Below the pieces are notes generated by a model. That model worked only from the letters and a program-made list of their open reading frames with translations. It was not told the DNA's origin and ran no database searches. A DNA stretch of 64,000 nucleotides from positions 1 to 64,000 of the forward strand of contig JADHLY010000004.1 in the NCBI GenBank assembly GCA_016780385.1, written 5' to 3'. The DNA comes from Flavobacteriales bacterium. GTDB lineage: Bacteria > Bacteroidota > Bacteroidia > Flavobacteriales_D > Sanyastnellaceae. Position numbers and translations under genes: made by a program. Positions 21,758 to 22,466 of the stretch are shown here, piece after piece (positions within the stretch are counted from its first letter, which is position 1; every line of letters starts with the position of its first letter).

Positions 21758-21832
21758 TGGCAGCCCCGCCAGGAATCGAACCTGGATCAAACGTTTAGGA
21801 AACGCTTATTCTATCCGTTGAACTACGGGGCC
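21758..21832 (-). tRNA. tRNA-Arg (CCT anticodon)
   Basis: Cloverleaf on the minus strand: acceptor GGCCCCG with CGGGGCT (one G-U pair), D arm GTTC...GGAT, anticodon loop TTCCTAA with CCT, T arm GGTTCGATTCC. Discriminator G is followed by an encoded CCA. It reads AGG codons. It sits between tRNA-Val(CAC) and the flippase gene. Confidence 0.92.
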
Positions 21833-21929: not shown

Positions 21930-21939
21930 TTGGGCGGGG

Positions 21940-22014
21940 TGGGCAATACTGGATTCGAACCAGTGACCTCTCGCGTGTGAGGCGAACGCTCTGAACCAAC
22001 TGAGCTAATTGCCC
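21940..22014 (-). tRNA. tRNA-Val (CAC anticodon)
   Basis: Cloverleaf on the minus strand: acceptor GGGCAAT with ATTGCCC, D arm AGCTCAG, anticodon loop CTCACAC with CAC, T arm GGTTCGAATCC. No CCA encoded. It is the second valine tRNA in the window, reading GTG. Confidence 0.93.
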
Positions 22015-22025
22015 GAAAAGGGGGG

Positions 22026-22033
22026 CGAAGATA
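22026..22033 (-). promoter_or_regulatory. Promoter -7-like box for tRNA-Val(CAC)
   Basis: TATCTTCG on the minus strand, 11 nt before the tRNA 5' end, matches TAnnTTCG. Confidence 0.45.
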
Positions 22034-22113
22034 CGCCAACTCTGCATTCCCGAAGCAAGACAAGACCCCTGTGATTTTGAAGTCCCGTCACCTGGTGTTG
22101 ACGGAGATAATAT

Positions 22114-22121
22114 TAATTTTG
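22114..22121 (+). promoter_or_regulatory. Upstream promoter-like box of the micro-ORF
   Basis: TAATTTTG fits the Bacteroidota -7 consensus TAnnTTTG inside an AT-rich stretch unlike the surrounding GC-rich DNA. Transcription from here would give a leader of about 115 nt that includes the whole inverted repeat at 22165-22224. The nearest TTG is only 13 nt upstream, shorter than the usual spacing. Confidence 0.35.
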
Positions 22122-22154
22122 TCTTAATTTCTTATCTGTTTGTCTATTTTTTGG

Positions 22155-22162
22155 TAAATTTG
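22155..22162 (+). promoter_or_regulatory. Second promoter-like box of the micro-ORF
   Basis: TAAATTTG is a perfect TAnnTTTG match, 79 nt before the micro-ORF ATG. Transcription from it would begin within the left arm of the inverted repeat, so use of this box or the one at 22114 would give leaders with different folding. Confidence 0.4.
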
Positions 22163-22164
22163 AT

Positions 22165-22224
22165 GGTGCAAATGGATAACGTTCCCTTCACCTCTTTAGG
22201 TCGTTGAAAACGGAAATTTGCACC
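22165..22224 (+). promoter_or_regulatory. Inverted repeat in the leader of the dockerin-like micro-ORF
   Basis: GGTGCAAAT (22165-22173) and ATTTGCACC (22216-22224) are perfect 9-base complements. Between them ACCT-CTTT-AGGT makes a small hairpin, extended by AACG/CGTT across a bulge. The arms could fold as a leader RNA structure 17 nt before the ATG or serve as a dyad operator. No known riboswitch is recognised. Confidence 0.45.
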
Positions 22225-22241
22225 GAGAAAAACAGGAAAAC

Positions 22242-22379
22242 ATGACCCTGAGCGATCTTCTTCAACTCCTGGCCAACTTCATGCAGCCTGTGACGAAGGC
22301 CAACGCCATGTACGATTTGAATGGCGACGGCATGATCACAACGTCCGACCTCATTCTGTTGTTGAGCCAGCTGCTCTGA
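22242..22379 (+). CDS. Dockerin-like micro-protein (45 residues, not in ORF track)
   Basis: Too short for the ORF track. The protein starts MTLSDLLQLL and contains one canonical dockerin calcium loop, DLNGDGMITTSD (residues 25-36, Asp/Asn/Asp at 1, 3, 5 and Asp at 12), followed by the helix LILLLSQLL. The first residues (LSDLLQLLANF) echo the second helix (TSDLILLLSQL), as if it were one and a half dockerin repeats with the first loop lost. There is no signal peptide. In-frame TAG at 22197 limits upstream extension; a TTG at 22218 is the only other start. It lies in its own AT-rich island with promoter-like boxes, ending 10 bases from a convergent tRNA. Expression is unproven. Confidence 0.55.
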   Translation: MTLSDLLQLLANFMQPVTKANAMYDLNGDGMITTSDLILLLSQLL

Positions 22380-22389
22380 CCCCAACTTC

Positions 22390-22466
22390 TGGTGCGCCCT
22401 GCAGGACTTGAACCCGCGACCCAGGGATTATGAGTCCCCTGCTCTAACCAACTGAGCTAAGAGCGC
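22390..22466 (-). tRNA. tRNA with CAT anticodon (probably Ile2, or elongator Met)
   Basis: Cloverleaf on the minus strand: acceptor GCGCTCT with AGGGCGC, D arm AGCTCAG, anticodon arm GGGGA-CTCATAA-TCCCT, T arm GGTTCAAGTCC, discriminator A and an encoded CCA. The anticodon arm and variable region are closer to E. coli ileX (tRNA-Ile with lysidine) than to elongator tRNA-Met, but this cannot be settled by eye. It lacks initiator features (no mismatch at 1-72). Confidence 0.88.

Follow-up and report, generated by a model that had tools for sequence, protein, structure and literature searches.

The window, by which we mean the whole stretch of 64000 nucleotides analysed in the present study, belongs to a draft genome (G000; 1.86 Mb, 84% complete) from an uncultured Flavobacteriales lineage, the relatives of which have database entries as MAGs of Flavobacteriales or Crocinitomicaceae, e.g. 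TMED114, UBA1995 and UBA4474. On its plus strand, positions 22242–22379 form an ORF of 45 codons with an ATG start and a TGA stop, as originally predicted, which translates into the 45-residue micro-protein MTLSDLLQLLANFMQPVTKANAMYDLNGDGMITTSDLILLLSQLL. The left neighbour of this micro-gene is tRNA-Val(cac) (21938–22014, minus strand), beyond which lies another member of the conserved tRNA group, tRNA-Arg(cct) (21758–21832, minus strand); to the right are tRNA-Met(cat) (22390–22466, minus strand), whose 3′ end and the stop of the ORF are 10 bp apart, and the gene for RNase R. The original prediction had described the flanking tRNAs as convergent, but all three tRNAs lie on the minus strand, opposite to the micro-ORF. 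It had also placed the ORF in an AT-rich island, and this proved correct for the DNA just upstream, where 22100–22199 (31% GC against a window mean of 58%) ranks first for AT-richness among 6391 hundred-base windows, but not for the micro-ORF itself, which is not especially AT-rich.

Translation initiation in the Bacteroidota proceeds without a Shine–Dalgarno sequence, their −7 promoter element has the consensus TAnnTTTG, and in Flavobacterium johnsoniae adenines at −3, −6, −12 and −13 raise initiation (PMC6847099). The sequence TAAATTTG (22155–22162, plus strand), 79 nt 5′ of the ATG, fits this −7 element perfectly, and a perfect box (6/6) was found upstream in eight of the 16 loci, compared with a mean of 0.8 in base shuffles; in the other loci the box is degenerate, some species have no clear box, and the −33 element is hard to make out. 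Promoter-like boxes had been proposed for the gene; a scan for σ70-type promoters found none, and the box that is present is of the Bacteroidota form. At the start site, the adenines at −13/−12 (22229–22230, plus strand) correspond to two of the published initiation determinants; A occupies −12 in 14 and −13 in 13 of the 16 copies, with no such enrichment in the flanking columns, position −3 is A in ten and G in five of the 16, and position −6 departs from the rule. Together, the start-site adenines and the TAnnTTTG box support the predicted transcription and translation from the ATG at 22242. By inspection of the alignment, TATCTTCG (22026–22033, minus strand) is the likely −7 box of tRNA-Val, and the string gaagata or aaagata is conserved just upstream of that tRNA. 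The promoter-like TATCTTYG at this position (22033–22026, minus strand) is kept genus-wide, including in the species with an empty site. The AT-rich island lies between this putative tRNA-Val box and the promoter-like box of the micro-gene, which point in opposite directions, and a region of divergent promoters would readily account for it.

Conservation, selection and origin within the genus

We searched 80 relatives at the DNA level and used profile searches on 114 genomes of the family and 399 of the order. Full-length matches (E at most 1.4e-26) were restricted to a single genus, where 14 of 16 relatives have one besides the window; one genome without the gene, G003, also lacks RNase R, indicating that the locus was not assembled there. 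Beyond the genus, the next matches had E values of at least 2.8e-7 and lay within longer open frames, mostly of 150–2000 codons. In the carriers, all 15 sampled sites hold the ORF between tRNA-Val and tRNA-Met, with exactly 45 codons and an ATG start, and at every site the stop codon lies 5–12 nt from the 3′ end of tRNA-Met; a second, tandem copy in G001 brings the number of copies or loci to 16. The homologues are 67–98% identical with the window's micro-protein, whereas the 5′ flank diverges in the alignment. No frameshifts were found in the homologues of the relatives, and in no sister genome does a longer gene end in the micro-protein sequence. The observations that the original prediction had named as refuting it were thus looked for, and none was made.

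Selection on the codons was assessed in several ways. The in-frame pN/pS of the micro-ORF is 0.27, and the remaining five frames are less constrained (0.53–3.2); 2547 differences fall at third positions compared with 603 at second positions. In 118 of 118 sequence pairs, which are not independent of each other although the effect is uniform, amino-acid changes were fewer than in a neutral simulation placing an equal number of substitutions at random (a mean of 11.2 observed against 23.2 expected), and such random placement produced a stop codon in 55% of trials. On the evidence of these comparisons, 22242–22379 is a genuine small protein-coding gene under purifying selection and not a relic. 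The free-standing minimal dockerin-like protein of the original prediction is thus strongly supported, as a genus-restricted gene family.

In a tree of RNase R fragments all 15 carriers formed one clade (support 99/98), with G005 as its sister and the outgroups beyond. In this basal species the tRNAs follow one another in the same order, an empty gap of 67 bp takes the place of the micro-ORF, and no dockerin-like motif was present next to tRNA-Met at any of the outgroup loci examined. Because the G005 site is empty and the outgroups are without the ORF, the simplest reading of these sequences is one gain after the G005 split, although loss of the micro-gene in G005 instead of a later gain is possible. 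The RNase R match in this basal species (L086, G005:C38, 12911–15058 of the contig) contains one in-frame TAG.

The genome G001 carries two diverged micro-ORFs in tandem; the stretch between them (L019/L088, G001:C6) matches the tRNA-Met 3′ end at 26 of 29 positions and is a probable pseudo-tRNA. Such an arrangement is as would be expected of a tandem duplication of the ORF plus tRNA-Met, after which one tRNA decayed. The two copies differ at 14 residues against 25.9 expected under neutrality, indicating that both have been kept under selection.

Our profile searches of the family and order gave no candidate for a direct parent tail closer than E 2.8e-7. Short matches in G013 (39 amino acids), G010 (82 amino acids) and G140 (81 amino acids) were set aside, as they look like pieces of tails. 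The 39-residue frame (L083, G013:C29) is the second repeat of a tail out of frame, through a frameshift or an assembly error, and the matches in G010 and G140 are at or near contig ends.

Parts of the micro-protein and their relation to dockerin-like tails

The micro-protein is composed of two helices, a near-invariant segment and one calcium loop. Helix 1 (residues 3–11, LSDLLQLLA; 22248–22274, plus strand), identified from AlphaFold2 and from comparison with the tails, is the counterpart of the helix that follows the first calcium loop of dockerins, this loop being cut off by the start codon. It is followed by FMQPVTK (residues 13–19; 22278–22298, plus strand), which the alignment shows to be near-invariant among the micro-proteins, and by the dockerin-type Ca2+ loop DLNGDGMITTSD (residues 25–36; 22314–22349, plus strand), defined by the alignment and Pfam, in which D25, N27, D29, I32 and D36 are invariant in 15 sequences and every calcium ligand position is filled. 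Helix 2 (residues 34–42, TSDLILLLS; 22341–22367, plus strand) was assigned with AlphaFold2, and the N-terminus does repeat its motif (LSDLLQLL against TSDLILLL), as had been noticed from the sequence. The AlphaFold2 models, built from 15 sequences, contain both helices and a short β-pairing of residues 15–16 with 31–32; the top model has a mean pLDDT of 82.6 and a pTM of 0.51, and lower-ranked models are less sure. Foldseek gave no significant match in the PDB (best E 0.25), and the weak matches shown were almost all EF-hand proteins. Hydrophobic residues make up 53% of the micro-protein, a share that a monomer of two helices would probably be unable to bury in full and that hints at a dimer or a partner, and a lone calcium loop may bind calcium weakly if it does not dimerize. 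Inspection by eye shows no signal peptide, in agreement with the original prediction, and none of the micro-proteins contains a cysteine residue.

In this family, large proteins carry at their C-terminus two loop–helix repeats with cysteines, e.g. GDFNNDGLIGIGDLLILLGDFGCTSGCSYDMNGDDGVTTSDMLVMLAIFGTSCE (L003, from the same genome as the window). The start of the micro-protein falls inside the region corresponding to the first loop, and it retains helix 1, the linker, the whole of the second loop and helix 2; its linker (FMQPVTK and following residues) is three residues longer than that of the L003 tail. Among the dockerin-like C-termini that we collected, a rough motif-based pick including a few from short or doubtful frames, 29 of 29 contain at least two cysteines. 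Outside the micro-proteins FMQPVTK was seen only in part, as MQPV in the linker of one tail from another genus (L109, G115:C20), which is the C-terminus of a 981-residue open frame and is otherwise distant; this may possibly be a hint to the type of the parent tail.

Proposed function and alternative explanations

Sequence analysis has shown the gene to be real, selected at the protein level, confined to a single clade and related to the tails. What it does is a matter of interpretation, and we give an even chance to the reading that it is a functional small gene, derived from a dockerin-like tail domain, for a stand-alone, cytosolic, Ca2+-dependent dimer or docking micro-protein. A fragment of a tail, comprising its final one and a half repeats, would have landed once between tRNA-Met and tRNA-Val, after the G005 split, there having its own promoter and start site; the features that link the tails to the cell exterior, i.e. 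the cysteines, the terminal FGxxC and the host protein, would have been lost, and the 45-residue stand-alone protein would then have been retained by purifying selection. The product would remain in the cytosol, where its one dockerin-type loop may bind Ca2+ and so order the two hydrophobic helices, and the helix surface together with FMQPVTK could form either a dimer, with two half-dockerins making up one EF-hand pair, or a site for Ca2+-dependent docking to a partner. The lack of cysteines and the micro-protein's own FMQPVTK segment are as would be expected of a domain that changed compartment, as we infer that it did, and acquired an interface of its own. A narrower version, in which the micro-protein is a cysteine-free cytosolic Ca2+ sensor acting as a symmetric half-dockerin dimer, and hence a bacterial calcium-signalling or regulatory protein that is new and restricted to one genus, is put forward as a tentative suggestion.

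Several proteins with homologous tails are encoded in the same genomes, and since the micro-protein looks one and a half repeats long, another half might associate with it; it might therefore act as an inhibitor or decoy that, as the matching half of a two-repeat domain, binds the dockerin-like tails of the cell's secreted proteins while these await export. We consider this improbable, as near-invariant FMQPVTK and the absence of cysteines suggest an interface of its own, and as the tails also occur in G005 and in genera without the micro-gene and so do not need it. An adaptor or decoy in the cohesin–dockerin sense, as first suggested for this ORF, finds no support, in view not only of the lack of cysteines and of a visible signal peptide, but also of a search for cohesin (PF00963) at E≤1, which found none in six genomes of the genus, all drafts, and makes a cellulosome-like role unlikely.

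There is a smaller chance that the peptide is secondary and that transcription of the micro-gene, or a read-through antisense RNA, tunes the expression of tRNA-Met or of tRNA-Val and tRNA-Arg. Position and orientation are indeed conserved, and the mRNA converges on tRNA-Met with its stop close to the 3′ end of that tRNA, but the constraint is codon-specific, and in an Rfam scan tRNA was the only family above the cut-off. A hairpin in the window's 5′ UTR (GGTGCAAAT...ATTTGCACC; fold z −1.2) was rejected as a conserved element because no locus other than the window and its near-twin L010 has it.

The site at a tRNA 3′ end, the clean empty site of G005 and the copy of the tRNA-Met 3′ end that bounds the second tandem unit of G001 might instead suggest the cargo of a small mobile or recombining cassette, which we judge to be very unlikely: the gene occurs in one clade at one site with the vertical pattern of the RNase R tree, the tRNA-Met repeat is absent from 15 of the 16 sites examined, no recombinase was seen, and simple tandem duplication explains G001. 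A PHROGs search gave no match below E 0.1, and the sole result of the viral scan, a dockerin-like loop DYNGDGDITTSDLLILLGDF inside a 931-residue frame on a phage contig (L091, 2439–5231 of IMGVR_UViG_3300024581_001239), led us to reject a phage origin. Finally, despite its clear homology with the C-terminal half of the tails of larger proteins, the ORF is scarcely credible as an unselected relic of a lost larger gene, a possibility raised originally and contradicted by the conservation tests, since every orthologous site has it intact and under constraint and its start-site adenines are conserved.

If the preferred reading of a stand-alone micro-protein derived from a tail is right, dockerin-like modules can probably be released from their host proteins and put to work inside the cell, here as a half-dockerin that lacks cysteines and is under selection. 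The empty site of the basal relative dates the birth of the micro-gene, and the gene, coding for 45 residues, offers a single-gene system in which Ca2+ sensing by bacteria and the way small genes arise can both be tested.

Comparison with dockerins and EF-hand proteins

Dockerin-like modules are known as appendages of larger secreted proteins, where they pair with cohesins or are thought to be surface anchors. The micro-protein shares with the cellulosomal type I dockerins (Pfam Dockerin_1, PF00404; e.g. PDB 2y3n) the DxNxDGxIxxxD loop with its helix, and a cellulosomal dockerin is also its best match among solved structures (E 1.8e-6). Against Dockerin_1 it scores 21.9 bits, just under the cut-off of 22.9, the first copy from G001 exceeds this cut-off with 23.1 bits, and all 15 homologues match the family, in support of the dockerin-type loop called in the original prediction. 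Unlike a type I dockerin, which has two complete calcium loop–helix repeats and is part of a larger secreted protein, it has one repeat and is a free-standing protein of 45 residues with a conserved ATG and a diverged upstream region. The order helix–linker–calcium loop–helix is likewise shared with the GC-type dockerins (NF041540), which are C-terminal tails of anchored proteins; residues 2–42 align with positions 19–61 of this 67-position model at 13.8 bits, below the cut-off of 29, and the tails tested score 17.9–28.6 bits, near or below the same cut-off, with one tail giving no match. In contrast with this family, the micro-protein has one calcium loop and not two, no visible signal peptide and no host protein, and it is without both the C-terminal anchoring end and the cysteines.

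The calcium-ligating loop residues of EF-hands are present in the micro-protein, and the resemblance to EF-hand proteins such as calmodulin and S100 extends to weak fold matches and to the short strands that pair up between loops, as they do in EF-hand pairs; however, position 12 of its loop is Asp, as in dockerins, the loop is single and there is no significant structural match. A free-standing dockerin micro-protein was not found in the open-access literature. The group 2 dockerins of Ruminococcus flavefaciens, in which one Ca2+-binding repeat alone is recognizable (PMC2930009), are C-terminal parts of larger proteins, whereas the micro-protein stands alone. By the features that define them, it falls outside the dockerin families, and is derived from, or at least homologous with, one half of the domain.
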